The notes beneath the pieces were generated by a model, which ran no database searches, was not told the origin of the DNA, and was given only the letters and a program-made list of their open reading frames with translations. Of a stretch of 64,000 bases of DNA, positions 1-45,037 are shown one piece after another. The stretch's first letter is position 1; the number at the start of each line of letters is the position of its first letter. The stretch covers positions 123,263,708-123,327,707 of the forward strand of contig OZ038381.1 in the NCBI GenBank assembly GCA_964036045.1, given 5' to 3'. This DNA comes from Eutreptiella sp. 'Long Island Sound 2002'. Its lineage: Eukaryota; Euglenozoa; Euglenophyceae; Eutreptiales; Eutreptiaceae. A program made the position numbers and the translations under genes.

Positions 1-4
1 ATGT

Positions 5-3105: not shown

Positions 3106-3773
3106 ATCCTTCCTGACAGGGACTATCATCAACCCGGAGCAACCCTCAAAAATGATCTTCTGCGCCGTGCGTTTGTAAAGATGGGGGGGGAGTGTACCCA
3201 CAGACACTTATTATTGCACAGCTGGGAGGGGGATCCCTTGTAGGGCCCTTTCCCAGTGTGTTGAGAATAAAAAGCATTACTGAGTACAGATGACACACGT
3301 TTTTTTGCAAATGCATCTGTCTCAATTATTATGTCGTTGAATTGTGCCAAACTAATGATGTCTTTACTAACTTCTGGAGGTGTTGTTAAGTTTCCCTTCT
3401 GATATATGCTTTTGAAGTTCTTTTTGCGTGTTTGCTTCTGCTGCTGCCTTTCGGCCGAGGTTTGTTTTCTTTTTGATATGTGATTGAGGGCATATGCACT
3501 GGGGCGGTCATTGAACGTTGTAGTTTCAAACCTAGTTTCTGGAGACGTCGAGGCTAAATCCATCCGTACTGGAGGGCAAATCACCCTTGTACAAATGATC
3601 ATGGTCCGCTCTGGTGTAACCCCATCCAGCCAGAAAATGGTCAGGGGCATACGGTAACGTTTTCGACGTACCCTTCAAAAGGGACACAGATGACTCGCTA
3701 GCCGTGTCCTCGTCGGAAGTCATCTCTCCCATACCACACTCAGATGACAAATCCCACCATGCCTGGTCTGACA
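3106..3773. repeat. Left copy of the ~668-bp duplication flanking E1
   Basis: This R1 segment (atccttcctgacagggac ... cctggtctgaca) recurs in the same orientation at 20564-21232. It ends exactly where the E1 tail begins, and the other copy begins exactly where E1's opposite end stops. To the left only this copy continues into R1 RT; to the right only the other copy continues into R1 dUTPase. That is the geometry of a target-site duplication. The two copies differ at scattered positions (roughly nine in ten bases agree by eye). Confidence 0.8.
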
Positions 3774-3793
3774 GTAAGTAAGTAGGTAAGTAA
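3774..3793 (-). repeat. E1 3' tail, (TTAC)n on the minus strand
   Basis: Plus strand reads GTAAGTAAGTAGGTAAGTAA; the minus strand therefore ends in about five TTAC-type units, one being CTAC. It lies exactly between duplicated R1 sequence and the GGGCGGCCGC terminus of E1. Confidence 0.8.
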
Positions 3794-4700
3794 GGGCGGC
3801 CGCATCCGCAGCCTCATCTGATATCCCCTTGTTTGTTTTACATGGTGGCCGCCTCTGGCGGGAAGGAGAGCTCTCCACCATCAGTTCCCCTGGCGACCCC
3901 TGTTTCATCTCACGGCCGAGAAGCTCAACCAGTTAACCTTGGGGCGTGACCGGCGGTAGGTTTCCTTCAGTCGCTGCCCTCACGGTCTCAGCTCCATCAG
4001 GTCACCCGTGGAAGAATCCCCCGGCCTCCCCCCCCTAGCACAGCCCTTAGGGTGCCTCCAGGCGGATTTCCTGTGGATAGCCGTCGCCGACAGCGCAGCA
4101 TTGCTCTCAACCACATGCCACCACTCCCCATCCCTCACGGGCTGGAGTACCCACTCGGCTCCCGGATGCACTTGGTTTTCGTCCATCAGCGGCTGGAGGC
4201 TGGGGGCGACCGTTTCCACGTTCCCCTGGGTTCCGCTCACGCGTGAACCCACGTGTACTCAGGCCATTGACCCGGGGGCCTCAGGGTCAACCCTCACTCC
4301 TGCGGACACCTCACGGCCGCGCCGGAGTTCAGAGCATTTTCCCGACTTCCCGTGGCCAGACTCCCCATGGTTGGCCCATGGTTCACCACTCCATGGCGAC
4401 TGGTTTCCCAATCCCACGGGGCTGTTGCTTGGCGCTTTCGGACTCCGATCCCCGCGTTGTCCCGTTCCCCTTCGCCACATCTGGTCGGCGGCCCATTTGC
4501 CGCATCCCGTGGTTTCCCAATCCCAAGGGGTTGCTGTGCCGCCCGTGCCACACCCCTGTCCTGGCCCCGTGCCCCATCCCATCCCTCATCCCGCGTTTAT
4601 ACCCCACCGGGCTCCGAGCGACCCAGTCGCGCGGGCCCACTGGATGCTCATCCATCCGGGGACGGTTTGGTGCTCCTAGCACGGGTCGCTCCTATCCAAT
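3794..4700 (-). repeat. E1 3'-terminal region, shared (inverted) with E3
   Basis: Read on the minus strand this matches the plus strand of E3 from about 11515 to 12598, ending in GCGGCCGCCC before the tail in both. It includes one copy of the ~182-bp unit that is repeated three times in E3, with a TTTATACCCC (minus: GGGGTATAAA) TATA-like site near 4597-4606. The opposite orientation of E1 and E3 makes this look like a long terminal inverted repeat of a single element; it is better explained as two separate insertions. No coding function is apparent. Confidence 0.75.
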
Positions 4701-4819
4701 CCCCCTTTTCCACGCACTGCGCGCGTTCGCCTCCAGATGTTCCTGTCCTTGGCGGCCGGCCACTTTTCCCGTGTCAAGGCCCCATTGGCCTACCTGTGCA
4801 TTGGCACGAGAACACAGCG

Positions 4820-5400
4820 TCTCTATGCGGCTGTGGCCCAGGAGGGACACCACTACACGTACCCCCAGTAGGGCTTGGAAGCGAGGTGTGTTCTGTATGC
4901 TTGCACCGCTTGTGGTCTTGCCGTCCTTGACGTCGTCTTTAAGAGCTCGAAGGGCAGATTGCCCTTTTGATTTTTGTACCTCGCCATTCAAGGCCGAGGA
5001 TCCTTCATGCTGCTGTTCCCCCCATACCTGGCTCGGGCGTGTTGCTGTGTGTGTGCTCTGTGCCCTTGGTCATGCAGAGTGGGCAGCCCAAGTGATCAAC
5101 CTGTGCTGGGGTACAAGAACATAGCGCGTTTTGTACTTTTTTTTTGCGGCTGTGGCCTAGCAGGGACGCAACTACAAGTACCCCTACTAGGGCTTGGAAG
5201 GATGGTGTGCCCTGTTGTCGCGCCCTGCTTGCGACGTGGTGACCATGTTGATGCGATCCTTGTTTTGTGTGTGACCCCGCCCTTGGTTTAGCTGGGTGGG
5301 CGGCCCTAGGCAAACCACTTCGGCCTACGTGTCCCACCTGTGGTAGGAGTGACTCATGCACGGTGGCCGTGCGGAGTGGCGTAGCTACCAGCACCCACCT
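4820..5400. repeat. E1 internal duplication, ~317-bp spacing
   Basis: The segment gcggctgtggcccaggaggg ... tagggcttggaag at about 4830 recurs near 5147 with minor changes, followed each time by similar text. E1-specific; no gene seen in 4700-5480. Confidence 0.6.
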
Positions 5401-5479
5401 CTGACCTGCTATACCCGGAGTACCGGGCCCGCCTCTGCGGGGCCTGTGGGGCCCAGCTCTTGCGGAGACAGGCGGTCAG

Positions 5480-6490
5480 CCCCGGATGATCGAGTCCGGG
5501 GCGCCAGGCCGCCACTTGTCCCTGAATGATCCAGTCCGGTGGACGGCGGCTCAGGCAGCTTGTTCCGCTCTGGATGATCCAGTCCGGGCTTCAGGTCTTA
5601 TTTCACCGGTTAATGCTCTCGTCGTGCAATGGCCGCTCCTTATTGTTTTTTTCCGGATGATCCTGTCCAGGGCACTTCATGGCCTCGTCCCCGCTTGGCT
5701 GCAGTACCACGGCCTCGTCCGGGTATTCGCATCACTGCATCACCGCGGGCTCCTCCTCTTGGCTGCCTCACTGCTTCTCCAAGGCTGCGTCCCCTTGGGT
5801 GCTGCTCCGCATCCCCACGGCCTCGTCCACTTATTCACCCTACTGCATCACCACGGCCTTGTCCTCCCCATGGTTAGACTACCTCTCCGCGGCCTCGCCC
5901 TCATCTCCGCTTGTTTGCTGTACCACGGCCTTGTCCTCACGACTGCCTCTCTGCATCTCCCGGCCTCATCCACAGGTCTGTTTCGCTGCTTCACCACGGC
6001 CCTGTCCTCATCATTGCTGCCCTGCGTCTCCTCGGCCTGGTCCTCATGCCTGCATCACTGCATTTGCTTGGCGTTGTCCTTTGCGTTCCCTCCGGACTTG
6101 ACTCCTTCGCTGCACCACCTTGCTCTCGGCCTCCTGTTTCCCTCGCCTCTGGCCACCATTTTCCCTTGGACGCTCCTGCCCTGGGGGTGGGGACCCCTTC
6201 TGGTTCTGCCGCCCCGGGCAATTCTGCCCTGGGGGTTTTGGCCGCTCTTTTACTTGTTCTGCCCCGGATGTTCCTGTCCGGGGCATCTGCCCGCCACGTG
6301 TCCCTCGACTATCGAGTCTTGGGTGCGGTGGCTCCTGCTGCCTGATCCACCCCGGATGTCCCAGTCCGGTGCGCCTGGCCGCCCCTTGTCCCCGGATGAT
6401 CCAGTCCGGGGTGCGGCGGCTCCTGCTGCTTGATCCGCCCCAGATGATCCAGTCAGTGGAGTCTGGCCGCCGCTTGTCCCCGAATGATCC
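5480..6490. repeat. E1 repeat block A, first copy (CCGGATGATCCAGTCCGG motifs)
   Basis: This ~1-kb block combines dispersed copies of CCGGATGATCCAGTCCGG (arms CCGGA/TCCGG around TGATCCAG) with cctcggcctcgtcc-type repeats. A second ~1-kb copy follows E2 in E1's own sequence, at 14835-15850, and further partial units continue to 17100. Long open frames here come from low stop-codon density in GC-rich repeats and show no domain. Confidence 0.7.
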
Positions 6491-6491
6491 A
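6034..6491. repeat. Left copy of the ~457-bp duplication flanking E2
   Basis: Host (E1) sequence from ggcctggtcctcatgcctgc to gaatgatcca repeats directly at 14379-14834. It ends at the E2 tail here, and the other copy begins at E2's 5' end. Because E1 has internal tandem copies of this region, an internal repeat could mimic this, but the match of both edges to E2's ends favours a target-site duplication. Confidence 0.65.
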
Positions 6492-6522
6492 GGTAGGTAG
6501 GTAGGTAGGTAGGTAGGTAGGT
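6491..6522 (-). repeat. E2 3' tail, (TACC)n on the minus strand
   Basis: Eight AGGT units in a row on the plus strand between E1 sequence (gaatgatcc) and the E2 body (gtgcactcgg). Confidence 0.8.
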
Positions 6523-6990
6523 GCACTCGGTCGTGGAGAGGCGCCCCATGGTTCCGCCTGGTATCCCCCCTGTGACGAACACAAAGAGGTTCCGCGTGTG
6601 AAGAGGGGAGGCGGCTTACATCCCGCTAGACCTGACTGGTGGCCCCCAACAAAGCGGCCCCGGGCAACACCGGGAGGGCTGATTGCCGCCAGCGTGACGT
6701 GCTTGTCTCGCCGGGAGGGTGTGCCCCCGTGCTTGCGCACGTCCCCTCCTTTGGGCGGAACCCTAGAGGTTCACCGGACTTCCTGGCGTATCCCGTTCCC
6801 AGGGCATGCATGCATGTTCTTGGTACTGGGGTTCCGAGGCGCTCCGGTGTCGCACGCTCCGCCTGAAGTCCCAAAGCAGCGCAGGCCTTAGGATGCAGCC
6901 TTACCCCCAGTCTCCGGATCACGTTTGGCCGGGTCACCTGCATGGCACGGGCTGCCTCAGTGCCCGGGCTATGGACACTGGGTTTCCTAC
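6523..6990 (-). repeat. E2 3'-terminal region; last ~100 bp shared with E4
   Basis: Reverse complement of 6523-6620 (cgcctcccctcttca ... ggaaccatggggcgcctc ... cacgacc) aligns with E4 at 43435-43531. The rest (6620-6990) precedes the satellite array. It carries cctttgggcgga and aaagcggcc text that distantly resembles the E5 3' region near 38450-38570. No gene seen. Confidence 0.65.
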
Positions 6991-9420
6991 TGTTGTGTGG
7001 TGTTTGTGTTTGGGTCCCGGTTATGTTTGGGCTCGGGTCTCGGCTGCGCCCCGCCACTCCGGGCTGGGGTGAAGGGGTGTGTGTATCTTGGGCTGCCCGC
7101 TCCGCTTGTACCCTGCCACTTCTGGCTGGGGTGTGCAGCGTGGGTGTGTGTGCTTGGGCTTGGGTTTCCGCTGCGCCCCGCCTCTCCTGGCTGGGCTGTT
7201 GGGGTGTGTGTGTGCTCGTGTGCCCGCTCCGCTTGTACCCCGTCACTCCTGGCTGGGGTGTGTGGTGTGGGTGTGTGTGCTTGGGCTTGGGTATCGGCTG
7301 CGCCCAGCCTCTCCTGGCTGGGGTGTTTGGGTGTGTTTGTGCTCGTGTGCCCGCACTGCTTCTACCCCGCCACTCCTGGCTGGGGTGTGTGGTGTGGGTG
7401 TGTGTGTTTGGGCTGGGGTTTCGGCTGCGCCCCGCCATTCCTGGCTGGGTTGTTGGGGTGTGTGTGTGTTCTTGGCTGCGCTCCGCTTGTACTCCGCCAT
7501 TCCTGGCTGGGGTGTGTTGCGTGGGTGTGTGTTTTGGCTCGGGTTTCGGCTGCGCCCCGCCACTCCTGGCTGCGGTGTTGGGGTGTGTGTGTCTTTGTGT
7601 GCCCGCTCCGCTTGTACCCCGCAACTCCTGGCTGGGGTGTGCAGCGTGGGTGTGTGTGCTTGGGCTTGGGTTTCGGGTGCGCCCCGCCACTCCTGTCTGG
7701 GGTGTTGGGGTGTGTGTGTGTTCGTGTGCCCGCTCCGCTTGTTCCCCGCCACTCCTGGCTGGGGTGTGTGGTGTGTGTGTGAGTGTTTGGGAATGGGTTT
7801 TGGCTGCGCACCGCCACTCCTGGTCGGGGTGTTGGCCTCTGCTTGTGTTTGTGTGCCCCCTCCACTCGTACCCCACCACTCCTGGCTGGGGTGTGTGGTG
7901 TGGGTGTGTGTGTTTGGGCTGGGGTTTCGGCTGCGCCCCGCCATTCCTGGCTGGGTTGTTGGGGTGTGTGTGTGTTCTTGGCTGCGCTCCGCTTGTACTC
8001 CGCCATTCCTGGCTGGGGTGTGTTGCGTGGGTGTGTGTTTTGGCTCGGGTTTCGGCTGCGCCCCGCCACTCCTGGCTGCGGTGTTGGGGTGTGTGTGTCT
8101 TTGTGTGCCCGCTCCGCTTGTACCCCGCAACTCCTGGCTGGGGTGTGCAGCGTGGGTGTGTGTGCTTGGGCTTGGGTTTCGGGTGCGCCCCGCCACTCCT
8201 GTCTGGGGTGTTGGGGTGTGTGTGTGTTCGTGTGCCCGCTCCGCTTGTTCCCCGCCACTCCTGGCTGGGGTGTGTGGTGTGTGTGTGAGTGTTTGGGAAT
8301 GGGTTTTGGCTGCGCACCGCCACGCCTGGTCGGGGTGTTGGCCTCTGCTTGTGTTTGTGTGCCCCCTCCACTCGTACCCCACCACTCCTGGCTGGGGTGT
8401 GTGGTGTGGGTGTGTGTGTTTGGGCTCGGGTTTCGGCTGCGCCCCGCCACTCCTTGCTGGGGTGTTGGGGTGTCTGTGTGTTCGAGTGCCCGCTCCGCTT
8501 GTACCCCGCCACTCCTGGCTGGGGTGTGCGGCGTAGGTGTGTGTTTGGGCTCGGGTTTTGGTTGCGCCCCGCCGCTCCTGGCTGGGCTGTTGGGGTGTGT
8601 GTGTGTTTCTGTGCGCGCTCCGCTTGTACCCCGCCACTCCTGGCTGGGGTGTGTGGTGTGGGTGTGTGTGCTTAGGCTCGGGTTTCGGTTGCGCCCCGCC
8701 ACTCCTGGCTGGGGTGTTGGGGTGTGTGTGTGTTCGTGTGCCCGCTCCGCTTGTTCCCCGCCACTCCTGGCTGGGTTGTGTGGTGCGTGTGTGTGTGTTT
8801 GGGCTCGGGTTTCGGCTGCAGCCCGCCACTGCTCGCTCGGGTGTTGGGGTGTGTGTGTGTTCGTGTACCCGCTCCGCTTGTACCCCGCCGCTCCTGGCTG
8901 GGGTGTGCGGTGTGGTTGTGTGTGCTTGGGCTCGGGTTTCGGCTGCGCCCCGCCACTCTTGGCTGGGGTGTTGGGGTGTGTGTGCGTTTGTGTGCCCGCT
9001 TCGCTTGTACCCCGCCTCTCCTGGCTGGGGTGTGCGGCGTGTGTGTGTGTGTTTGGGCTCTGGTCTCGGCTGGCCCCGCTGCTCTTGGCTGGGGTGTCCG
9101 GGTGTGTGTGTGTGTGTGTACCTGCTCCGCTTGTACCCCGCCACTCCTGGCTGGGCTGGGCGGTGTGGGTGTGTGTGCTTGGGCTCAGGTTTCGGTTGCG
9201 CCCCGCCTCTCCCGGCTGGGGTGTGTGTGTGTTCGTGTGCCCGCTCCCCTTGTACCCCGCCACTCCTGGCTTGGGTGTGCGGCGTGGGTGTGTGTGGTTG
9301 GGCTCGGGTTTTGGCTGCGCCCCGCCACTCCTGGCTGGGGTGTTGGGGTGTGTGTGTGTTTGTGTGCCCGCTCCGCTTGTACCCCACCACTCCTGGCTGG
9401 GGTTTGTGGTGTGTGGGTTG
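6990..9420. repeat. 127-bp tandem satellite array (~19 units)
   Basis: Landmark cccgctccgcttgtacccc recurs every 127 bp (7096, 7223, 7350 and so on). Each unit is a dimer of ~63- and ~64-bp halves, both built on ccgccactcctggctgggg followed by GT-rich text. Because 127 is not a multiple of 3 and the unit lacks stop codons, the array is open for hundreds of codons in several frames on both strands; none is likely a gene. The GT-rich side is on the plus strand. Confidence 0.9.
7376..8387. repeat. Two adjacent 506-bp copies inside the satellite
   Basis: 7376-7881 and 7882-8387 are nearly identical over ~506 bp, that is four 127-bp units (one noted difference: cactcctggtcgg versus cacgcctggtcgg). 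Divergence resumes at 8420 (ggctggggtt versus ggctcgggtt). This points to a recent unequal exchange or slippage of a four-unit block. Confidence 0.85.
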
Positions 9421-10390
9421 GGTGTTGCCTGGCACCTGTTCCTGTGCCGTGGTTTGTTGCGTGTTGTGCGCGCTGCCCAGGTTTGCGGCACCCGGTAGCC
9501 GTTGTAGCTTGGCACCTGTTCGTGTGCCGTGGTTGTGGCCGGCGGCGTTCCTCTCTGGCGTGCCTTGTGGCCCCGCGTTGGTGCGCCGCGCCTCGTCCGG
9601 TCCGGTCGCTCTCGGTGCTCCGGTCGGCTTTCCTGTCGCCCTCGTGCCTTTCCCCATCCCAGGGGCCTGCCCCCCCGGTTTTACTGGGCGGCTGCGCGGT
9701 GCACGTGGAGGCCTGCCGAGAAACGGGCTCTTTGTGCCTGCCGCTGGCCCCCGCCAAGGCGGGGGCTCCGGGCTCGCTCCGGGTCGTACCCGTTCGGGGC
9801 CCCACGATGGGGTTGTCCCTGGCGGGTCCCTCCGGCTTTGGTCTTGGGCTGCGTGCGCTGCGGTGGTTGGCGTGTGTGGACCCGGTCACTGACGCGTCCG
9901 GTTTCCCGTACCGCCCGTCTTTCGACGGGGGACTCGGCCGGTGCACCAGGGCTGTTTCGTGTGGACGCCGACACCTCCCCTTTCGGGTCGGAGGACGCGA
10001 CGCCCGGGTCCCGGGCGTGTGTGCGTGTGCGTGCTTTGCTTGGCTGGGTCGGGGGGGCCGGCCTCCTGGGCGCTTTGTGGTGCGCCTCACCTTTTCCTGT
10101 GGCCGCTTTGTCCTTGTTCTTTGTTCGGCCCCCTCCGGGCTTGGGTTGCCCTGTTTGCTGTGTTTTTTCTTTCTTCTTTCCTTTGTGCGCCCCCGTTGTC
10201 TCCGGCGTTCCGTGTTTTCTGGCCCGGGGTGCCTTGGGCCTTGGTGTCTTGTTCGCCCCCCCCTTTTTTTCTTTCTTTCTTTTTTTTTTCTTGCCGCCCC
10301 CCCCCCCTGTTTTTTTTGTCCTCCTTGGTGTTTTGTTCCCTGCGTTTTTTTTTTCCGCTGCCCTGTTTGTTGTTTTGTTTTGTTTTTGTC
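9421..10390. repeat. Block B, E2 copy
   Basis: From ggttgggtgttgcctggcacc through gtcactgacgcgtccggtttcccgta to the pyrimidine-rich tracts, this matches 17150-18060 in E1 in the same orientation. Nucleotide conservation is even, with no clear codon pattern, so I treat it as shared 5' non-coding sequence of E1 and E2. Ends in C/T homopolymer runs at 10255-10390. Confidence 0.75.
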
Positions 10391-10951
10391 TTTTTTTTGC
10401 CGGTTGTGCGGTGCGGTGTCGGTTTGTGTGTTTGTGGCTGTGCTGGTGTGTGGTGCTGTTGGCGCTGCGGTCTGTGGTGCGTTGTGTGTTTTGCCTGGTG
10501 CTGTGTGGCGTGCTTGTGCTTGGCTGGGTTTTCGTGCCTTGCTGTCCAGCGCGGTGTTGCGCTTGGTTGTCTTGTTCTGCTGTCGCGTGCTGCCGTGTTC
10601 TCTGCTGGGTTTTCTTTTGCGTTGTTCCCTGCCTTTCCGTGGTGGTCCCTCCTGTTTTGGTCTGTATGGTGCTCGGCCGTGGTGCGTCTTGCTGTTTGGT
10701 GTGGTCCTGTGGCGTTGCGTTCTTGTGCTGGCTTCGGTTGCGCTGTGCCGTTTGGTGCTCTGCCGTGCCGTGGTGCGTCTCTTGGTTCTGTGCTGTGTTG
10801 TTTGTATCGTTGCGGTGCTTGGGTCGCGTCTTGCCTCGTCCGCTGCTGTGGCGTGTTGTTGTACTCTGTCTGTCCTTGGACGCGGTGCTGTGTCGTCCTG
10901 CTGTGCTGCCTGTGGTCTGTGTGCTGTCGTTCCTTGTGCCGTGTTTCTGGG
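10391..10951. repeat. Left copy of the ~565-bp duplication flanking E3
   Basis: E2 sequence tttttttgccggttgtgcgg ... gtgccgtgtttctggg is repeated directly at 12615-13182. This copy ends at E3's first base and the other starts right after E3's tail. The two are almost identical, so E3 looks like the youngest of the E insertions. Confidence 0.85.
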
Positions 10952-11333
10952 AAAGAGAGTCAGGAAGCGGGAGGGGAAGGAGCAGATGGAAAAGCGGCCA
11001 AACACATGGAACCCGGACGGGAACAACCAGGGAAGCAGCGCACCAGGACTGGAACATCCGGGGGCGTGGCATCCCTGGATGGGAGCATTCGGGGCTCCAG
11101 GCGGAAGATGAAGCGGCGGCAGCAAAAAACAGCAAGGAGAGCAAGTACAAGAACTGGGGAAGCAGGAGAACGAGGACAAGAAGAGCAAGAGGCGGGAAGC
11201 GAGAGGAGAAGGAGAAGAATGAGAGGCAGATGGGCACATGGAACCCGGACCCATGTGGCTAGGGCCAAGCGACGGCCCCAGGGGACTAGGACAGCATGGG
11301 AGGCGGAACAGGAGAGAGGGGTGGGGGCGGTAG

Positions 11334-11880
11334 GGGAGCGACCGATGCTAGGCGCACAAAACGGTCCCCGGATGGATGAGGATCCAGTGGGCCCGCGCCA
11401 CAGGGTTGCTGGCGGCCCGGTGGGGTATAAACACGGGATGAGGGATGGGATGGGGCCGAACAACAGCCCAGGGGATTAGGCCGGGGCCGCGGCACAGGGG
11501 AAAAAGGCGGGAAGGGAGCGACCCGTGCTAGGCGCACGAAACGGTCCCCGAATGGATGAGGATCCAGTGGGCCCGCGCCACAGGGTTGCTGGCGGCCCGT
11601 TGGGGTATAAACATGGGATGAGGGATGGGATGGGGCCGCACAACAGCCCAGGGGATCAGGCCGGGGCTGCGGCACAGGGGAAAGGGACGGGGGCGGGAAG
11701 GGAGCGACCCGTGCTAGGCGCACGAAGCGGTCCCCGGATGGAAGATGATCCAGTGGGCCCGCGCCACAGGGTTGCTGGCGACACGGTGGGGTATAAACAC
11801 GGGATGATGGGACAAGGGGACGGGGCGGGGAAGGGCGTGTGGCTAGGGCCGCACAACGGCCCGAGGGGTAGGGAGTCCAT
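11334..11880 (+). repeat. Three tandem ~182-bp units each with a TATA-like site
   Basis: Units start at ggagcgacc near 11335, 11517 and 11701, each with gctaggcgcac, gatccagtgggcccgcgcc, gttgctggcg and GGGGTATAAACA (tataaa at about 11426, 11606 and 11792), then gggatga. E1 has one such unit (inverted, 4570-4700). The repeated TATA-like box could be an internal promoter array, but no transcript evidence exists here. Confidence 0.75.
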
Positions 11881-12598
11881 GGGAAGCTGGGAACGGGCCG
11901 GTGCCGGGATGAGGCAAAGGGGAATGCGACATGGGATGGGCACAGAGACCGAAAGCGCCAAGCAACAGCCCCGTGGGATTGGGAAACCAGTCGCCATGGA
12001 GTGGTGAACCATGGGCCAAATGGGGAACCTGACCACGGGAAGTCAGGAAAATGCCCTGAACTCCGGGAGGGCCGTGAGGTGTCCGCAGGGGTGAGGGTTG
12101 ACCTCGAGATCCCGGGTCAATGGCCTGAGTACACGTAGGTTCACGCGTGAGCAGGACCAGGGGCAACGTGGAAAGGGTCGCCCCCTGGCCTCCATCCGTG
12201 GATGGACGACACCCAAGTGCATCCGGGAGCCGAGTGGGTACTCCAACCCGTGAGGGATGGGGAGTGGTGGAATGTGGTTGACAGAGAGAAATGCTCCGCT
12301 GTCGGCGAGGGCTATCCACAGGAAACCCGCCTGCAGGCGCCCAATAGGCTGTGCTAGGGGGGGAACGCCGGGGGATCCTTTAAAGGGTGACCGGAAGGAG
12401 CTGAAACCGTGAGGGCAGCGACTGAAGGGGGCCTACCGCCGGTCATGCCCCAAGGGAACCTGGTTGAAGTTCTCGGCCGTGAGGTGAGACAGGGGTCGCC
12501 AGGAGAACTGATGGTGGAGAGCTCTCCTTCCCGCTAGAGGCGGCCACCATGTAAAACAAACAAGGAGATGTCAGATGAGGCTGCGGACGCGGCCGCCC

Positions 12599-12614
12599 TT
12601 ACTTACTTACTTAC
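12599..12614 (+). repeat. E3 3' tail, (TTAC)4
   Basis: Four perfect TTAC units follow GGCCGCCC and precede the T-run that begins the duplicated flank. Confidence 0.8.
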
Positions 12615-25098: not shown

Positions 25099-25112
25099 CC
25101 CCCTTCTCTGAG
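25099..25112 (-). promoter_or_regulatory. R2 polypurine tract
   Basis: The minus strand reads AGAGAAGGGGG directly before the 3' LTR; it primes plus-strand cDNA synthesis. R3 has GAGAAGGGGGG in the same place. Confidence 0.8.
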
Positions 25113-33670: not shown

Positions 33671-35936
33671 TGCTCAAAATCCAAGGTTCCAAATCCAAAA
33701 ATATAGAAAATAAAATCCTCCTTCAACCCTGAATGGCAACCGGATCCCACAAATACAGCAATAACCCAATTCACAATCAAAATCAGGCTGCGGGCTTCCG
33801 TTCAGCACACCGGTCGTCTCACGGTGGCGGGCATGTACAAGAATTGCACCAAAGAGGAAAGCCCTGAAATTAGCATATGAACACAAATAAAGCAAAGTTG
33901 GGGAAAGAGGTAAACATACCCATTCACAGCCATAAACCCCTCATTCCCTGGACTCAAGACCTTTCCTTGACTCACCAACATATTGCCCTGAACCAGGTCA
34001 AATGAGATGGCTGAATGCCATGTGTCACAAGTCACTACATAAACCCCAAAAATGTGTTCACTCCCAAGCCCATAAATCCTAGCCAAATACGGGAGGTGGC
34101 GTGTCATGGCCCAGAGTGGCACTCAGGACCATGCCCTACCCCGACATAACCTTGGTTGGACTTGGGGTCGAATGGGCTTGGAGATATGCCCCATGAGTTT
34201 GAACTCATAACATGCCAAAAAACTGCCAATTCAGACCATATTGGCCATATATCAAATATATGCTCAAAATTGAGGTTACCACTTATCCGAAGGCTCAAAG
34301 CATGCATGGAATCGAAGTCTAATATTCATGGTGGATAGAGACCAAAGACCAATGCCCATGTACATCCCCAAGTTACCCTCGAAACCCCTTCGGATATGGG
34401 CGCCACACACTGCTCAAGTCAGCCCATGGTCTTGAGACCAATTCTTGTAATCCTTCGTGTGCCAAACCAAATGGAGTACGCAATCTGGCATATGGTGGTG
34501 TTTAACTCCAAAGCATATGCCAACATATGAACATCATACCATGGTTCGACTCCCCATAGGCTTCTTGCTGTTTGCCGACCAGTTGAGCACACAAAATACA
34601 AAAATGAGCAACAATTGAGGTCAAAAACATGAAAATATGACGAAATACAAAGTTGTCATGATAGTATATCTCTATGCTCACCCATGATATCCGCGCATGG
34701 TTCAATATACAAATGATTGGAACCATTTGCGAACAATTTCCCCACTTGGATCCCCAATCAGGCGCACGGAGACACCTTCGCCACTCGTATCTACATGCCC
34801 CATGAAAATGGGAGTGCACTCATGGATCTATTTACCAAACATACCATGAGCAATACATACGCGGTAGACTTAGTCTAGCGCTTTGAATTCCACAATTGGG
34901 ACATGGGCAAAATCCTTGTCACGTATGGCTCCCCATCTCTTCGGCCACACGAAGATATATAACATGGGCGTGAGCATATCAAGACATATACCATGCATAT
35001 AAAACATACCCTCAAAAGTGGCTCCCACCATGATATGCCATGTCCCTCCATTGGCATAACTTCACGTTAAAAACACGTAGGAACCCAAGGAAAGTTGCTA
35101 TGCAACCCCAACACTCATGCAGTACACTCGAAAGTCACAATAAAATGTTCGGTTGCACGGTCCAAGAGATATATATCACCTTATACCCTCCTGACCATTA
35201 TCCCTTGCTATACCGGGCATGGGTACACACCAAAGGCGTTTGGCGCTTCCTAAATTAAGTTGAAACCAAGGCGCTTGCAACGCAACCTTTCTTATTCTCT
35301 TTCCTCACACTCGCTCGTGGAAATAGCCCTTCAAAGTGGTCCCACGATTCGCTTTTGTTTCCCTCATATCTCCAAGTCAAATGGGTGGCAAGTATAAGGG
35401 AAACCTGATTCGGACATAGGGAAAGGAGTACGACCACTCGAAGAAGACCGAATCAAGTGCGGCGATGTCGAAGTCGAAAATCCGATTTCGACGTCGCGAA
35501 AAATTCTGATTAAAATTTCGACTGCTTATTTAGAAAATTGCGGAAGCAACGAACCCTTTGCTGATGAAATCTGACCCTTCATCGGGGTTTCCGCCAGAAT
35601 ATCTGGAAATAACAGTTAACCAATCGGTTAACGCAAAATCGCGAGCCAACTGACAGTCGCCGATACATTGACCATCAGAACGAAAGGCTGAAAAATTACG
35701 GAAACATTATGATAATAAAACCCTGTTGATTCCTGATATTCTGATGTATAAATCTCCGCTGGCCTCGGTACTGAATGTGGCCGCTCATAGCCGGAATGGC
35801 CAAACCTATCACACTATCACATCGGGTTAGGTCAGTTGGATGGGAGAGTATGATATCAGCCAATGGCGGCTTGCCGGCACATAGATACACACCCCAAGTG
35901 ACCCCAGGATGGCCACGGGGGTCCGAACCGGCTTCA
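33585..35936 (-). repeat. R2 5' LTR (2352 bp)
   Basis: Starts TGAAGCCGG (complement of 35936) and ends CCTTCTTTA next to the PBS. Aligns over its whole length with the 3' LTR. The LTR hairpin has one arm mismatch (35493). Flanked at 35937 by TTAC. Confidence 0.9.
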
Positions 35937-36112: not shown

Positions 36113-36532
36113 TCATAGGGGTGACATGAGACTCTTTGGAAGAGCTTTTTTACACCGTACATGAGAAATGCGGGGGCGCATTTGTTCAGGCTGCCCCTCA
36201 TCAAAAGACAAAACGTTCCAGGGCACACTTTCCCACTCAGTATGTGTTGCGGTAGCCGATTTCCCAACCACTGCTGCTTTCGGGGGGATTTGGCGGGCTG
36301 CCTTCGAGGCGCGGGGGTGGGACGTTGGCCTTTCAAGCGGTGTTGTAGACTGTACCACTTGGTGAGACCTACGACCCCTCGCAACCCTCTATTCGTCCTT
36401 CCCCTCCGCTGTCAGCTTCTCCACCTGACGTGGATGGGGCGACCGAGAGCTCCTAGGACTAGGGATGGTTCTTTTATCCTGATGTCGCTCCTTATCCAAT
36501 CCTGGTGGTACTGCATCAGGAAGCTTGAACCA
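36113..36532 (-). pseudogene. R1 region between nucleocapsid and protease
   Basis: Short overlapping minus-strand frames (for example HTEWESVPWNVLSFDEGQPEQM, and in another phase PKSLMSPL) indicate frameshifts. No domain recognised; position fits the Gag-Pro junction. Confidence 0.5.
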
Positions 36533-36574
36533 GCAATCAGAGGAGTTATGGGTGCTTAGTTTACAATGCTCACA
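36533..36574 (-). pseudogene. R1 nucleocapsid zinc knuckle
   Basis: Minus-strand translation CEHCKLSTHNSSDC is a canonical CX2CX4HX4C retroviral-type knuckle, which binds element RNA. It reads on upstream as GKQDKDYKRGSKR in the same phase, while the adjoining basic region is in another phase, so a frameshift lies near 36600. Clearly different from the wide knuckle of R2 and R4. Confidence 0.8.
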
Positions 36575-36993
36575 CCTCTTGGAACCTCGCTTATAGTCCT
36601 TATCCTGCTTCCCGTCCTTACTCTCTCCATCCCTACTAAGCCTCCTAGCGCAAGGTTAGTCTCCTCCTCGTGGAGTGCGGCTCCGATCTCTATTCGCTGT
36701 CCTCGGTCCTTGCTCAGACTCCTATCTCGGGTCCGGCTCCCCATCTTGTCCCGATCTCGACTGTTTGCCCAATCACGGTGCTTGGGGTCTGTATTGGTTG
36801 AGCGGTTTCGACTATTGCACCGCTCCCTATTTCCATCCCAACAACTTGCGTTCTCAGTTCGTGGGCGATCATTATGCCGGCTAGGACTCTTGGACCTTTC
36901 TCTTTCACGACTATGGCTCCCAGATCGGTGCTCACCAGATCCATAGCGGTAGCTCTCACTATTTTTACGCGGACGGGATCTTTCATTACTCAC
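36575..36993 (-). pseudogene. R1 Gag basic Arg/Ser-rich region
   Basis: Frame rich in Arg, Ser, Asp and Glu (ERERSKSPSRHNDRPRTE, DRSLSKDRGQRIEIG), next to the zinc knuckle. Likely nucleic-acid binding by composition only. Confidence 0.6.
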
Positions 36994-38347
36994 GCTGTGC
37001 CGTCACTCCTTGCTGCTATCCCTACAGGGAGTTGTTCTCCCTCAATATGGGGAAGTTTTTCGCTCCCTAGGGCCATCATACATTTCCCTTGTGCGAGCTT
37101 CACGTGTTCGATCTCGAGCCTCTTTTCGGTCCACATCCTCGAATGTGAGAATATGCGGCATTACGACACAATAGAGCTCAAGATGGGTGTACCTCTTTCC
37201 ATGCTCAGCATGGCGAGTAGTGATCTTGGACATCACCTTGTCAAATCCCTTGGTACGCCCCGTCTTATTATCGGCCCGCAAAACCTGCATGAATTGCTGA
37301 TGCGCCCTGAATTTGGAAACACCTCCGGTAACTCTCTGACCTGCCGCACACCATAATGTAGGAAAATCAGCAAACTTCTGAGGGGTTAACACCTCTGGCA
37401 ATTGCATGACCAGGCATTCATCTCCGGGCTCTTCGGGATCGGTATGTCGCCCTGCATCCCGAGAATTACGCCACAACAACTCAAAAAATGTGATCTTTCG
37501 GCCTCGTTTCAGCTTAGGCCATTTGGCCTGTTCTTCCTGTGGTTGGGCGGCAATCACATTTTCAAATTCAGCTTGCTCACTTTGATGCTGCGCATAATTG
37601 TCATACCATTCCAAAACACTAAGCTCATAATCACACCAAGGAGGTCCCTTTTTGGACTTTGGAAACCTTGCACGTGTGCGCATCATTTCCAATGTTTCCA
37701 GGTTATAGTGGGGATGTCCTTCTTTGGACCAAAGGTTTCCCGGATCCTCGGTTTGAGGTCTTTGCTCATAGATCAACTGAAGCCAATCCTCTGCCGGACG
37801 GACTTCCTTGAAACCCCATCCTTCCTCTATCCCTGATGGAAAGAGCTTCGTGTTTCGCTTATCCTCAGGCGGACACAATGCATAGCTCGGGTCAAAATAA
37901 TACTCCGAATCATAACACCAGGCTAACTGTTTCCACTCTGCCTCTTGTACTGGAGTCACTGTGGCGTTACCTACGAATGTATCCGGCTGTGGTGGTGGCG
38001 GCGGGAGTGCCAGTACCGGTACCGCGTTTGAAGAGTGAGAGTGGACCGCAGTGGGTATTGGTGGCTGTATGAGTGACGGAGACATTTGTGGCACTGGCAA
38101 TGTCCTTGGCAATTTGAGCAGGACGCCACCTAACCCAACTGTGGTGCCTATGTCCAATAATCGATTTGCTGCCTCGGGTAATTCCTTGGCACTTGAGTGT
38201 GAAGGGAGCTGGGGTTCTGGCAGGTTGATGTGTCCTGCTTGGCTGGAGTAAAAAACAAATGGTGAGACATTTCCCGTGGAAGCGGTTTTTGTATTGCTTC
38301 CGTCCGGTTGTCGGCTGTCTCAGCCATTTCATTATACAAACGGGTGA
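36994..38347 (-). pseudogene. R1 Gag, central part
   Basis: Minus-strand frame (main open part 38157-37042) with a Pro-rich stretch LALPPPPPQPD and a distinctive domain: WKQLAWCYDSEYYFDPSYA, EEGWGFKEVRPAEDWLQLIYE, GPPWCDYELSVLEWYDNY, LPEVLTPQKFADFPTLWC, DKVMSKITTRHAEHGKRYTH. No named domain recognised; placement before the knuckle implies capsid-type Gag. 37963-38347 is also the left copy of the E5 flank duplication. Confidence 0.65.
37963..38347. repeat. Left copy of the ~385-bp duplication flanking E5
   Basis: R1 gag sequence ggcgttacctacgaatg ... caaacgggtga repeats directly at 42618-43001. Ends at the E5 tail. The two copies are nearly identical (a few percent of bases differ by eye). 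Confidence 0.85.
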
Positions 38348-38362
38348 GGTAGGTAGGTAGGT
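38347..38362 (-). repeat. E5 3' tail, (TACC)4 on the minus strand
   Basis: Four AGGT units on the plus strand between R1 gag and the E5 body. Confidence 0.8.
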
Positions 38363-38879
38363 TGACTCGGGACTGGGGTTGCCCCGCCAGGAGGTCTTAC
38401 CAAGGGGCTTTTGCTCACCCACCCATGGCCCCACTGCACGTGCCCCCACAAAGCGGCTCCCGCACATGGGGGAAGGGCGCGGTCGCCGCGAGGAGTACCC
38501 TACAGCGGGTTCTCCCCAGAGAGGCAACCCATGTTCGACCGAAGTCTTACATTCCTCTCCTTCGGGCGGATGATACGTGGGGGAGGGTCCCATCGCACAT
38601 CCTCATCAACCTCCGGATTCTGGGGCCCAGGGGCCGGGAGCCACACCAAAGGCCCTGTCCTGCAGGCACCCCCACCTGGGTTGGTTTGCAGTAGGCGTGA
38701 GGCGACTTGAAGAAGCACGTGCTACGGGACTCGCACGCCGTGGCGCACACTCACGCCTCCTGACTCGGTCGAGCTTGCGCTCTCCCGGGGGGCCAGGGGT
38801 TCGAAGTAGGTCGTCGTGGTTGGTTGGTCGGTCGTTAAAAGGTTCGGTGTAGTCTGGTGACGTCCGTCGGTCGGTTGCG

Positions 38880-39830
38880 TGGCGGGAGAGTCACGGTTTT
38901 GTTCGTGGACATGGTTGTCGGCGGGCGTGGCGCACCACAGTGTCGCCAACCCGATGGACGCCGTTCCCGTTTCGACCGATGCACGCCTGGCTGGTTTGGT
39001 GTTGGCCGGCTTGCGTGTGGGCTGTTTATGGTCAAGTGGCGGCTGCAGCTGCGGTGTGGTCGGTGCGCGGTTGTCTTCGCCGCCTCATGGTCGGCTTGGT
39101 CTGCGTGGGTTTCGTCGCGCTGCTGCCGGTGGTCGTATCGCCGAATGTTGTGTGTGCAGCCGGCACGTCCATGTCGGCGCTGGCTAGTTGCGTCTTGGTT
39201 GGTCCAAGTGCGGCGTAGTGCGTTTTGTCAAAGTTGATTGGCCGCCTTCGTAATGGTAGAGTTGTGGTGTTCTGTTGTGTTCGTTGGCATGCTCGTCAGC
39301 CGGCGTGGCGCACCACGATGCCGCCATCTTGTTGGACGTCGTTCCCGTTTCGAGCCGTGCACGCCTGGCTGGTCTTGTGTTGGCCGGCTTGTGTGTGGTC
39401 TGTTTACGGTCATGTGGCGGCTGCAGCTTTGGTGTGGTTGGTGCACGGTTGTCGCGGCCGCCTCATGGTCGGCTCCGTTCGTGTGGGTTCCGTCACGCTG
39501 CTGCCGGTGGTCTTATCGTCAAAAAACATGCCTGTGCAGCCGGCGCATCCGTGTCGGTGCTGGTTAGTTGCGTCTTGGTTTGTCCAAGTGTAGTGTAGTG
39601 TAGTTTGTTAACCTTGGTTGGTCGTGTCCGTAGTGGTAGAGTTACGGTGTTCCGCTGTGTTCGTGGGCATGGTGGTCGGCGGGCGTGGCTCACCACGGTG
39701 TCCCCAGCCCGTTGGACGCCGTTCTTGTACCGGCCCATGCATGTCCGGCCGGTTCGGTGTTGACCGGCGTGCGTGCGGTCTGTTTATGGTCATGTCATGT
39801 TCGCTGTAGGTGTTTTGTTAGTGCGCGGTC
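38880..39830. repeat. E5 tandem repeat, ~379-bp unit, three copies
   Basis: ggcgtggcgcaccac-type landmarks at about 38924, 39303 and 39682, each followed by gttggacgccgttc, ttggccggcttgtgtg and gtttatggtcatgtgg. The last copy decays after 39830. Confidence 0.75.
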
Positions 39831-40740
39831 GTGTTAGTCGCGTCTTGGTGTGTTTGTTCAGCGTTGGTTCCTTGTCGCTGCAGCGGGCGCTTGCGCACTC
39901 CGATTTGTTGCGTGCAGGTATTCCGCTTGTTGCCGTGTTGGTTGGTGCCAGTTGCGTAGGGCCGGCACGGTACGTTTTTACTGTGCGCCGTCTCCCCACC
40001 GTCGGGGAGAAAAGTGATGATAAGTCGTTTGACCGCTGTAAAAACGTTTTCCCAATTCGGTGCCCTTTTCCCTGCCCTGCCCTGGCAGTGTTGCATGCAC
40101 AACCCATCATCTGGTACTTCGCGGTGCTCTGTGGCCGTCCTTCCAGTTTGGCCTGTGCCATTCATATGTACACCCCCCGCCGGTGGCAAGGCTCCGTCGG
40201 TCCCCCTTGGTGCGCCCCTGTGCTCCCCATGGGGGCCCCAGGGTGCTGTTCCGGCTCGGTGGTGCGGTGCTCCTGTTCGTGTCTGCCTGCCTGCCGTGCG
40301 CCATACCGTGCCGTGTTTTGCGGGTCATGTGGCTGGCGTGCCTGTGTCGCAGTGCTGAGTTTGGTGGTTAGGATGGTTAGGGCGGTTGGACTCGTGCTGT
40401 GGTGCCGGGACGTTCCGTCCGGCGTGGTGGGCTGGGCTCGGCGTATCACATCCGTGTCTGCTGGCAGGGGGTTGGCGTGGCCCCGTGTGGCGAGCCTGTG
40501 GTCCCTCGCGTGCCCCAGGTGGGGCTTCGGAGGATAGGATTACCGGGCAGTGTTGCAGCCCCCCTCCCGCTTATTGACGCTGTTAGCTTTCTGCCGGGAA
40601 TGTGTCCCTCGTACCCTTCGCGTAGGTTATATGTGCCGAAACCCCCCCGGCGTCCCAGGCGTTTAACTTTCCCGGAGGAGGTGTGCGCCGGTTCCCCCGT
40701 TGCACGTATCCCTGGATGCTCGCCTTGGAAGGTAATACTC
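39831..40740. other. E5 unique segment
   Basis: About 0.9 kb of GC-rich sequence without repeats or convincing coding potential. Confidence 0.4.
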
Positions 40741-42262
40741 TGGACGATTGTTCGATAACATTCTCGTGGTCATCGGCCCGGTCGTGGGTCCCGCGTGTTT
40801 GGCCGGCCACTTTGCCCGGCCCCTTGTGGATCTAGCTCGCGGGAAAGTAGGGTTAGGTGGAAGGACGGGTCCGGGTCCGGCGCCGCCCCTTTCTCTGTTG
40901 CAGGCGGGTTGCGGGGGTCCAGGAAGCGTGGCCCCCACCCGGGGGATGCAGGAGGAAGTCGTTGGGTTTTTGTTCTTGTCCGACACCACGGGCTGCTAAG
41001 GCTAGCCTCTCCTCTTCGGGTATCTGTAGCATGTGTCGGGCAGGTTGACGTTTTTCCTGGCGGTGTGTCCGACCGACAGGCGTTGCTGGAGTGTGTTGCG
41101 CGGCCGAGCGTCGTTGGGTTGTACGAGGGGTCCTTTTGGGCGAGGTTGGCTCGTCCGGGGTCGTAGCGGTTTATGGCCGAGTGCGCAGCCGTTGGTGGGA
41201 CGTCCATCGCCCGGCCCTCTGGGGGGAGGAGATGATCCCGCAGCCGTCGTGTCGTCTCCTCCCTTGCGCATGGCCCGTGCGGGACTTGCGTCGCGCGTGT
41301 GCGGCTGTGCGTCGTTGCTGCAGGTCCTGTGGCCTGGTGCGGCTCAGGGCCCTGGGGGGTTTCCAACGCGTCGCACAGGGGCGCTGCGGATGGAACCAAA
41401 GATTCCGTGCACAAGGGCCGCGTGTGCCGCCTGGGCCTCCGTCTTAGTGCGGATGGCGGGCTGCAGTTGTTCGCCCAGCGCCAGCGCCCGGATCTGGCGG
41501 ATCGCGGTGCTCGATAACACTCTCGTGGTCATTAGCCCGGCCGTGGGCCCTGCGTGTTTGGCTGGCCCCTTTGCCCGGCCCCTCGCGGATCCGTTACGCG
41601 GGAGGGGAGGGTCAAATGGGATGACGGGTCCGGGTGTGGCGCTGCCCCTTCCTCTGTTGCAGGCGGGTCGCGGGGGACCGGGAAGTGCGACCCCCGCCCG
41701 GGGGATGTGGGAGGAGGTCGTTGGGGATTTTTTTGTGTCCGACACCACGGGCTGCTAAGGCTAGCCTCTACTCCTTGGGTGTCCGTTGCACGTGCCGGGT
41801 AGGTTGACGCCTTCCCTGCTGGTGTGCCTGATCGACAGGCGTTGCTGGAGTGTGTTGCGCGGCCGCGCGTTGTTGGGTTGTACGAGGGGGTCTTATTTGG
41901 CGAGGTTGGCTCGCCCGGGGTCATCGTGGTTCGTGGCCGACTCCGCAGCCATTGGTGTGACGTCCATGGCCAGGTCCTCTGGCGGGAGGAGGCGATCCCG
42001 TGGCCGCCGTGTCGTCTCCTCCCTTGCGCATGGCCGCTGCGGGACTCGTGTCGCGCGTGTGCGGCTGCGCATCTTCGCTGCAGGTCCTGTGGCCGGCTGC
42101 GGCTCAGGGCCCTGGGGGGTTACCCACGCGTCGCACAAGGGCGCTGCGGAGGGCACTGAAGATTTCGTGCACAAGGGCCGGGTGTGCTGCCTGGGCCTCT
42201 GTCTCAGTGCGGATGGCGGGCTGTAGTTGCTCGCCCAGTGCCAGCGCCCGGATCTGGTGGAT
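40741..42262. repeat. E5 tandem repeat, ~759-bp unit, two copies
   Basis: tctcgtggtcatcggcccgg at 40762 recurs at 41521 (tctcgtggtcattagcccgg) and the copies run in parallel (ggcggatcgc, ccggggcgcgg, gacaccacgggctgctaagg, cgacaggcgttgctggagtg) to about 42262. Remaining 42263-42617 is E5 5' sequence with no gene seen. Confidence 0.8.
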
Positions 42263-42617
42263 CGCGAAGACGGGGCACAGGTTGGGCGCAGTGGGGGTCT
42301 CCGCCGTCGGTTCCGGGCTGGCTTCCAACTGCTGCCGGCCGTCAAGGTAGAACCTCCACGTCGCTGACCACACCCTGGTGTGTGGCCAGCGGCATTGCGC
42401 CCACCGCCAGAGGCAGTAGAGGGCATGGCCTGGGTGCCAAGTGCCGGCCGTCCCCGACACGATGGCCGTCAGGGGGTCCGGGGGCTGGCCTGGGAGCAGG
42501 GGGGTGGGGCTGTCCGGCACGTCCGTGGTCGCCGAGAGCATGGAGTTGACGGCCTCCAAGCTCCAGTGGCTCTTCTGCGGGTGCGAAATGATCCGCACTT
42601 GGTAGTAGTCAAAGCGG

Positions 42618-43001
42618 CGTTACCTACGAATGTATCCGGCTGTGCTGGTGGCGGCAGGAGTGCCTGTACCGGTACCGCGTTTGAAGAGTGAGAGTGGACC
42701 GCAGTGGGTATTGGTGGCTGTATGAGTGACAGAGACATTTGTCGCACTGGCAATGTCCTTGGCAATTTGAGCGGGACGCCACCCAGCCCAACTGTGGTGC
42801 CTATGTCCAATAATCGATTTGCTGCCTCGGGTAATTCCTTGGCACTTGAGTGTGAAGGGAGCTGGGGTTCTGGCAGGTTGATGTGTCCTGCTTGGCTGGA
42901 GTAAAAAACAAATGGTGAGACATTTCCCGTGGAAGCGGGTTCTCGTATTGCTTCCGTCCGGTTGTCGGCTGTTTCAGCCATTTCATTATACAAACGGGTG
43001 A
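42618..43001. repeat. Right copy of the ~385-bp duplication flanking E5
   Basis: Direct copy of 37963-38347 that continues to the right into R1 gag (gggtga|tgtttcgag), while the left copy stops at the tail. Confidence 0.85.
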
Positions 43002-43419
43002 TGTTTCGAGTTGCCTCAAGAGCCCCGGCAAGTTCCTGTTTGGCGGAATTCTCCTCGTTTATGGGCTCTGGCCAAGTAGCTGTGAATCTCATGCCTGGTG
43101 CTTCACTTTTCCATGTGGAATCTTGTTCTTTCTCTTTGTGACCTGTTTCCTTTTCATGGGCGAGGGGTTCATGGGCGAAGGGTACAACCTTTTCAACCAT
43201 TGCCTCTACCTGATCCCGATGTCTCCTGGTGTCACACACGTTGGAATATCTTTGAGCATTGTACCTTTTAGCTTCCTCAACGTAATCCTTCACTCTCAAT
43301 GCCGTCTCCTTCACCACGTTACTCTCATCGGTGGCGATCTCTGCATCCCGGGACGCAGCCTTCCAGCGCTTACCTGTGCTGACCGGGTTGCCTCTGTCAA
43401 TTCGGCTTCATACTTGGCC

Positions 43420-43434
43420 TTAATTGTCTTGATG
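43420..43434. repeat. E4 target-site duplication, left copy
   Basis: TTAATTGTCTTGATG here and at 43556-43570; perhaps 17 bp if the preceding CC is counted. Confidence 0.85.
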
Positions 43435-43555
43435 TAAGTCGCCTCCCCTCTTCAAGCGCGGAGCCTCTTCCTGTTCGTCACAGCGGCAACGCCAGCAGGA
43501 ACCATGGGGCGCCTCTCCACGACCAGGTGGCTACCTACCTACCTACCTACCTACC
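43435..43555 (+). mobile_element. E4: short 5'-truncated E2-type insertion
   Basis: 121 bp: body taagtcgcctcccctcttca ... cacgaccaggtggc followed by (TACC)n at 43532-43555. The body matches the last ~100 bp of E2 (reverse complement of 6523-6620). Perfect 15-bp duplications of R1 gag flank it. A SINE-sized, 5'-truncated, tailed copy with a normal-length duplication is typical of target-primed reverse transcription. Confidence 0.85.
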
Positions 43556-45037
43556 TTAATTGTCTTGATGGTAGCCAAGTGGTCATTCACAGGAGCAGGA
43601 GGAGGGGGAGGTGGAGGTGTCGGAGTAATTGATGCTTCAATCTGTGAGCGGATTCCAGGGACTTCCGTGACCTGAAGCCTTGCTTCTGTAGCCACAGCCC
43701 GTGCTTCCGCCACTTGTTGCACCACCTCGGCTGCTTTTGCTTCGAGAGCCGAATTTGTCGCTTTCTGATTTGTCATGATGCCCTGATTTTCAATGACCTC
43801 CAATTTGGCCTTTGCAAGTATTGCGTTGGCTTCTCCCACTTGCTGGAGAACCTGATTTGCCTCAACTTGCAGGTTTCCTGGGAACGTTGCGGCTACTGTG
43901 TGCATCTGTTCATTGATGACCTTGCGCAATGTTTCCGGTGTGACACATGATTGCATGCCCCTTCCCAGCTTGTCAACCGTTTCCTCTATCATTGAAACCT
44001 TGGAAGGCAGTGGGGAAAGGGGTTGAACCTCTTCTTGCACGACCTGATATTGAGCGTATGACACATATTCAGCCATACTCTCTATCATTTTGTCACGAGA
44101 CTGTTGGTATTCCACATGCAGCACGCAGTTACTGACTTTCCGTTCTGTTTCAATCTTTTTTGCCTCTAACCGTTCAACCCTTGCTACTGAAGATATTGTG
44201 ACCATGGTGGATCTCATTTCTTCACGATGCCGGGTGTATTCACCATGTGTCACACACTCATTCACCACACGATCTCTCAATTGTTCATGATGCGCGCCCA
44301 ATTGTTGTATATTGGCAACCATTTCATTAACCCGTCGTGTTAACTCATCATGCGGTTTTGGCAACGAGGCAGGAGTGGAGGGCAAAGAAGGCAATGGAGA
44401 CACAGAAGGCACAGCAAGATTCCACTTTTCCAATTGTGAAATCCTACATTGTAGCTCTTGGATATCCGACATTTTTTTCGAAAATTGTTGAGCTACTTGT
44501 CCCTCATGTTGTATGGAACCTTTCGCCAATTCGGTGATTCGTTGTCGGAGTGCCTCTATGTTGGACTCCAATCTTTCGAGATCACCTGTGCAAACCTTGT
44601 GTTCGATGGCCTGCAACCTGGTGTCCATGTCTTGTTGCATCTTTTGCACCAGGTTTTTTTTTGTGGACCCTTGCAACGTTTCCATTCGTTCTAGCCTTTG
44701 AGACACTTCTGCATATCGGCTAGAAAGTTCGGTATCTTGTAATTTCAAGGCATGGACCCTTTGGGGCAACGGAGAGTCCTCAAGCATGGGGTCTGGTGTT
44801 ACTAAAGACCTTTTGACCTCATCCATCTTGACATCCATTTCTTGTCGGAGTCCTTTGATGGACTCCCTTACTCGTTGGTGGGCCTCGTTAGACAAGGCCT
44901 CCTGGTCCGTCCGCAGACTCTGCATGTTCCGTTGGATTTCAACAGCCGTGCCCTTGGTTGTTGTGTTGTTCTCGAGTTCTTCAAGTTGTCCATGAATGGC
45001 ACCTATTTGCTTGGCATATTTATCTATGCTGTCACCA
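43556..45037 (-). pseudogene. R1 Gag, N-terminal coiled-coil region
   Basis: About 490 codons on the minus strand dominated by heptad-type helices (KYAKQIGAIHGQLEELENN, RRVNEMVANIQQLGAHHEQL, AKAAEVVQQVAEARAVATEA) and ending in TPTPPPPPPPAPVND before E4. The frame is open from the R3 LTR junction; the first ~30 codons (ATG at 45123) lie in the LTR and are shared with R2's gag frame, so they are not R1's own start. Unusually long coiled coil for a Gag; function inferred from position only. Confidence 0.65.

Follow-up and report, generated by a model that had tools for sequence, protein, structure and literature searches.

Tailed, non-coding insertions between long direct copies of their targets in Eutreptiella: probable LINE-type elements with a distant second cut

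In target-primed reverse transcription (TPRT), the length of the target duplication is the distance between the two nicks that open the target. A 64,000-nucleotide stretch of the genome of Eutreptiella sp. 'Long Island Sound 2002' (assembly GCA_964036045.1, contig OZ038381.1, positions 123,263,708 to 123,327,707 of the forward strand; hereafter the window) holds four tailed insertions, E1, E2, E3 and E5, each of which lies between direct copies of host DNA that are hundreds of base pairs long. Were these copies made when the elements landed, and by what route? The original prediction, drawn from the sequence alone, took all four pairs for duplications made in independent hosts and invoked widely staggered nicks or a copy-and-repair mechanism. 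Our analysis suggests that at least two of the four pairs were convincingly duplicated by the landing itself. The case is strong for E5 and E1, probable for E3 and ambiguous for E2. Together with a fifth, short-duplicated insertion, E4, these sequences are probably non-autonomous elements of the long interspersed nuclear element (LINE) type, that is, elements without long terminal repeats (LTRs), which were inserted by TPRT with a distant second cut in E1, E5 and probably E3, E2 being uncertain.

Flank pairs and insertion sites

We recovered the four flank pairs by gapped self-comparison of the window and by end-to-end alignment, at coordinates only a few bases off the predicted ones. The self-comparison gave 78 pairs of at least 150 bp at E 1e-10, and of these the rows inside a 127-bp array (6.8-9.6 kb) were left out. 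E5 (38348-42615, minus strand) was found in a gag-like frame of its host, between unstranded copies at 37963-38347 (385 bp) and 42616-43001 (386 bp); the corresponding blast pair, 37954-38350 and 42607-43004, was 96.0% identical. E1 (3774-20563, minus strand; ~8.4 kb of its own DNA) is carried by a Ty3/gypsy-type element, and its flank copies at 3106-3773 (668 bp) and 20564-21232 (669 bp), likewise unstranded, as are those of E2 and E3, were 92.2% identical over 670 columns. E1 holds E2 (6493-14378, minus strand; ~5.6 kb of its own DNA), whose flank copies at 6034-6492 (459 bp) and 14379-14835 (457 bp), 93.2% identical, lie inside a tandem array of E1 and are ambiguous as a target duplication. 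E2 in turn holds E3 (10952-12614, plus strand; 1.66 kb), between copies of 561 bp each at 10391-10951 and 12622-13182, with a blast pair of 96.3% identity at 10383-10951 and 12615-13182.

Pairwise alignment gave lengths of ~668, 458, 561 and 385 bp for E1, E2, E3 and E5, respectively, which bore out the prediction of tailed insertions between long direct copies. The predicted geometry also agreed with the alignment of the pairs and their edges: the similarity reached the tail at one edge and the far end of the element at the other, and the outer sides were unlike. When the four left flank copies were compared with each other, the only matches spanned 11-13 bases, with E values of 0.27 or weaker. 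A chance origin of the pairs, which had been thought unlikely, was rejected: when the window was shuffled 20 times under a local-Markov model, the longest direct repeat with at least 85% identity measured 28 bp. Among the pairs of at least 150 bp retained in the self-comparison, the flanks of E1, E3 and E5 were not repeated elsewhere in the window.

The divergence of the flank copies tracked nesting, at 7.8% for E1, 6.8% for E2 within E1 and 3.7% for E3 within E2, as would be expected of duplications made at insertion. The E5 copies differed by 4.0%, compared to 6.7% for the LTR-like pair around the E5 host (93.3% identical). E5 may be younger than this pair, which may itself be shared with neighbouring units.

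The sites of E5 and E1 do not lie in repeats. When the empty E5 site was computed with the right flank copy, a single frame of 570 aa ran through the join, as compared to frames of 312 and 425 aa at the occupied site. At E1, an open frame of 359 aa in the outer right flank extends into the duplicated copy. The pol frames of the E1 host were 29-40% identical to other pol frames in the window (tblastn), and this host is an old copy. No host homologue across the E1 or E5 site was found inside the window at E 1e-3 with 13 frames.

Tails, families and a short duplication at E4

A scan of both strands for runs of at least three T(T/C)AC-type tetramers returned eight matches. Five were tandem tails, one at an end of each of E1 to E5, and three were irregular and away from insertion ends, so that in all five insertions a 3' tail or simple repeat stands at one end only. 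The tails lie at the left end of E1 (3774-3793), E2 ((AGGT)8, 6491-6522) and E5 ((AGGT)4, 38347-38362) and at the right end of E3 (12599-12614) and E4, so that E3 and E4 read along the plus strand and the other three along the minus strand.

Comparison of the elements indicated constant 3' ends with 5' truncation in some copies. The last 914 bp of E3 matched the 3' end of E1 at 85%, as far as the tail, and E4 matched the 3' end of E2 over 128 columns at 86%. The 5' part of E3 matched pieces of the interior arrays of E1, and E3 is probably truncated or internally deleted as well. E1 and E2 were similar in two parts, the 5' end (73% over 349 columns) and the middle (84% over 841 columns), and by eye they start within ~10 bases of each other in the family register; their 3' ends did not match. 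E1 and E2 thus look as if 3' modules had been swapped between families. E5 had no second copy among the insertions: it did not match E1, E2 or E3 beyond the tail region, and with E2 it had only 24 bases around the tail in common. When the last 100-110 bases of the five elements were folded as single sequences, no shared hairpin shape was seen by eye.

E4 differs from the other insertions in the length of its duplication. It occupies 43420-43570 on the plus strand and consists of a 121-bp, 5'-truncated element with an E2-type 3' end (43435-43555) and a (CTAC)6 tail (43531-43554), between 15-bp copies of TTAATTGTCTTGATG at 43420-43434 and 43556-43570. At the 5' junction the element overlaps the target by 4 bases, GATG. 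By these features E4 is an ordinary LINE-type insertion, and it ties the group to TPRT. The stretch described in the original prediction ended at 43570, which is the end of the E4 duplication, and this counter-example went undiscussed there. Duplication length therefore varies, from 15 bp in E4 to 385-668 bp in E5, E3 and E1 (E2 being ambiguous). E3, which is far shorter than E1, has a long duplication too, so truncation alone does not set the length.

As far as tested, the insertions are non-coding, as had been proposed. No Pfam match was found in the 20 element frames scanned, which are a subset of all frames and include one (42469-43317) that is partly host. For E1, E2, E3 and E5, 50 composition shuffles of the sense strand gave a range that takes in their longest frames on that strand. 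Antisense frames reached 704 aa in E1 and 276 aa in E3, more than the shuffle maxima of 521 and 261 aa, which are sense-strand values and no antisense control. The sense strand, as defined by the tail, has 6-11% T in E1, E2, E3 and E5, with one polarity for all four, as compared to 17% inside a neighbouring host unit (internal region, 25098-33580). This is a strong and unexplained strand asymmetry, and the long open frames in the elements exist mostly because of this T-poor composition.

The elements also contain tandem arrays, at 7024-9413, 14596-17033, 18145-18753, 38900-39795 and 40749-42266, with periods of ~127/379, 88, 36, 211 and 380 bp, plus a 759-bp pair. Plain array copies of this kind can mimic target duplications.

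A distant second cut and the explanations that compete with it

In the mechanism that we favour, one target strand would be nicked, and its 3' end would prime copying from the tail of an element RNA. The 5' end of the copy would then be joined where the other strand is cut. If this second cut lay ~385-668 bases from the first, as we propose for E1, E5 and probably E3 (E2 being uncertain), gap filling would duplicate that much of the target; in E4 the second cut would have been 15 bases from the first. A helper LINE would presumably supply the enzyme. The distance could come from weak second-strand nicking by this enzyme, or from a host repair background (for example, weak nucleotide excision repair (NER)) in which a distal nick is used. 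The window does not distinguish a cause in the enzyme from one in the host.

Several observations weigh against this interpretation. No match to a reverse transcriptase or LINE endonuclease was found in the 20 frames scanned, and no partner LINE was seen within the window. Long duplications are not obligatory, since E4 shares its 3' type with E2 and yet has a short one. The order of divergence by nesting involves three ranks, which alone would agree by chance one time in six. Each outer E5 frame already extends into the flank copy on its side, so the join mainly shows that the frames agree, which is expected by chance one time in three. When the empty E5 site was computed with the left copy, no frame crossed the join, because the flank copies have diverged, and the E1 join gave no continuous frame with either copy. 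At E2, a third copy of the array is as close to each flank as the flanks are to each other.

The last point bears on the possibility that only some of the pairs are target duplications, E2 and perhaps E3 having hit pre-existing repeats, and that the pattern of four is partly a coincidence. The E2 target is a tandem array inside E1 with a period of ~1,045 bp, and both flanks and the third copy (15424-15880) were equidistant, at 93.7, 93.7 and 94.1%. A sister test of the three copies was neutral, with 13, 13 and 15 sites for the three pairings. The duplication model restores the array period at E2, giving 1,044 as compared to 1,045 bp, which speaks against a coincidence, but the register is restored alike by a 457-bp duplication and by a 588-bp deletion in a pre-existing array. 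Neither model explains why neighbouring parts of the array are less alike (88.0 and 86.7%). The E2 pair therefore need not be a target duplication, as far as its sequence can tell. E3 also landed in repeat-rich, low-complexity DNA of E2. Both of its flank copies matched one stretch of E1, at 75.0% and 72.5%, which leaves the copy number in E2 unsettled: the match would neither prove nor exclude a single ancestral copy there. The E3 site is probably unique. With the E5 and E1 flanks outside repeats, we regard a partly coincidental pattern as possible, though we would sooner expect it to be wrong. The 'four independent hosts' of the original prediction are accordingly reduced to two or three clean cases, since E5, E1 and probably E3 stand and E2, with its tandem-array target, is ambiguous. 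Likewise, staggered nicks with long duplication remain the best explanation for E5, E1 and probably E3, and at E2 they are not separable from the 588-bp deletion.

It is also conceivable that template switching or fork repair captured a copy of the element and re-entered the target hundreds of bases back, with no staggered double cut involved. A stretch of 385-668 bp is long for a melted stagger, and the mechanism at the second end is not visible in sequence. This route differs from a distant second cut only in how the second end is joined, and the tails, common 3' ends and 5' truncation are marks of target priming; we consider it unlikely. Ectopic recombination or chimeric assembly between two insertions of one element, at neighbouring positions in separate host copies, could likewise leave duplicated host DNA around a hybrid element. 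Both the elements and their hosts are repetitive, the window contains several related host copies, and the flank copies differ by 4-8%, as paralogues could. However, this would need nearby pairs of independent insertions at several loci, always duplicating and never deleting; an order of divergence by nesting would not be expected, and the E1, E3 and E5 flanks lack further copies among the window pairs. We rate it as distinctly improbable.

The flank pairs could finally be LTRs of large, non-coding, nested LTR elements, similar to large retrotransposon derivatives (LARDs), which would fit the long direct repeats around non-coding DNA, their nesting and a divergence that tracks age. This was rejected by the flank cross-comparison and the outer edges, and we give it hardly any weight. 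E1 and E3 belong to one family by their 3' ends, yet have unrelated flanks; none of the four insertions has a matching duplication of at least 4 bases at its outer edges; no left copy of the four starts with TG, and only that of E1 ends with CA (edges being uncertain by a few bases). In addition, the E5 flank belongs to a longer open frame. Penelope-like elements and retrozymes are also flanked by direct repeats of hundreds of bases, but there the repeats are part of the element and contain hammerhead ribozymes, whereas the repeats described here belong to the target. Ribozyme-bearing elements were rejected as candidates, as no Rfam match, and hence no hammerhead ribozyme and no rRNA, was found in the window at E up to 0.1.

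The distant second cut thus remains our preferred explanation for E5, E1 and probably E3. A broader version of it would hold that the LINE machinery in this host habitually cuts the second strand 0.4-0.7 kb away and that E4-like, ordinary duplications are the exception, in which case the length would reflect an enzyme or a repair state like that of excision-repair-deficient human cells. This version is drawn from five insertions, of which one is ambiguous and one short, and we advance it tentatively, as doubtful at present.

Host units and comparison with known systems

The window is eukaryotic mobile DNA, in which large minus-strand frames match Ty3/gypsy-type pol. The domains matched were reverse transcriptase, RNase H, integrase core and chromodomain, the integrase core always below its curated cut-off. 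For the 1,643-aa frame at 57302-62233 the best solved structure was Ty3 Gag-Pol (E=3.5e-69). The left part of the E1 host (1-3105, minus strand) has Ty3/gypsy-type reverse transcriptase and RNase H frames (RVT_1, E=1e-14; RT_RNaseH weak, E=0.0027), and the right part (21233-22685, minus strand) has a dUTPase-domain frame (E=5e-18), which lies at 21756-22685, at the start of the unit carrying E1. LTR-like repeats of ~2.35 kb at 22745-25096, 33585-35936, 45034-47404 and 54902-55689 separate head-to-tail Ty3/gypsy-type units. They are 93-97% identical, except for the partial repeat at 54902-55689 (71-72%), and neighbouring units seem to share one such repeat. The unit at 36500-45123, host to E4 and E5, has two gag-like frames that overlap in different reading frames, of 559 aa and, at the computed empty site, 570 aa. 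No Pfam match was found in three frames scanned, and this unit may be non-autonomous, with a frameshift. ARAGORN, in its bacterial setting, found no tRNA genes in the window.

We also searched for relatives of the hosts and elements in collections of viruses and prokaryotes, where a eukaryotic relative is not expected. None was confirmed in viral contigs (three DNA patterns, the 1,643-aa polyprotein and an alignment of three pol frames; 600 pattern matches) or in prokaryote contigs (a pattern and the three-pol-frame alignment; 162 pattern matches).

The non-LTR retrotransposon R9 of bdelloid rotifers, which encodes its own enzyme, is similar to the elements described here in that target-primed insertion comes with an unusually long duplication. 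Target duplications have been tied to staggered cleavage, with the 126 bp of R9 as a distant case (PMC6895275). In contrast, R9 is specific to ribosomal DNA, whereas no rRNA was found in our window, the duplications here vary from 385 to 668 bp, the targets are other mobile elements and no Pfam match to an enzyme was obtained in the 20 frames.

Long and variable duplications have also been described for the human LINE L1. In NER-deficient cells they ranged from 5 bp to 5.3 kb, with a median of 1,495 bp as compared to 14 bp in complemented cells, and the use of a distal nick was proposed (PMC5223499). Those cells are engineered and mutant, and L1 ends in poly(A), whereas the set described here is natural, old and nested, with microsatellite tails. 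In other reports, L1 duplications reached 29,902 bp with medians of 12-13 bp (PMC5717806) or ranged to several hundred nucleotides (PMC1291365). In HeLa cells, full-length L1 had duplications of 10-17 bp, and extremely long ones came with 5'-truncated copies (PMC2912911), which is the reverse of what we observed for E1 and E4. In ordinary cells, long L1 duplications are a minority, with medians or peaks of ~12-16 bp; here they make up at least two, perhaps four, of five. The contrast drawn in the original prediction with ordinary duplications of 4-20 bp consequently holds as far as those described here are long, but much longer ones than 4-20 bp are in print, for both R9 and L1.

RTE/Bov-B LINEs and their short interspersed nuclear elements (SINEs) resemble the elements described here in their microsatellite-like 3' ends and mobilised non-coding partners (PMC13295347). 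The duplication search in that paper covered 10-49 bases only, and SR3, of the RTE clade, has duplications of 10-12 bp (PMC1291365). No LINE clade is assignable for the elements described here, and among open-licence papers we found no description of them.

Long duplications at LINE-type insertions are thus already known; their frequency in one natural set would be new. How LINE-type insertion is completed, including the site and the agent of second-strand cleavage, is an open question (PMC6895275). If our interpretation is true, the elements described here would be a natural counterpart of the long L1 duplication events. If, in addition, the second cut in this host is usually hundreds of bases away, the host would offer a natural lineage for studying the question outside mutant human cells. 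Most insertions would then amplify coding-size (exon-sized) stretches of their targets.

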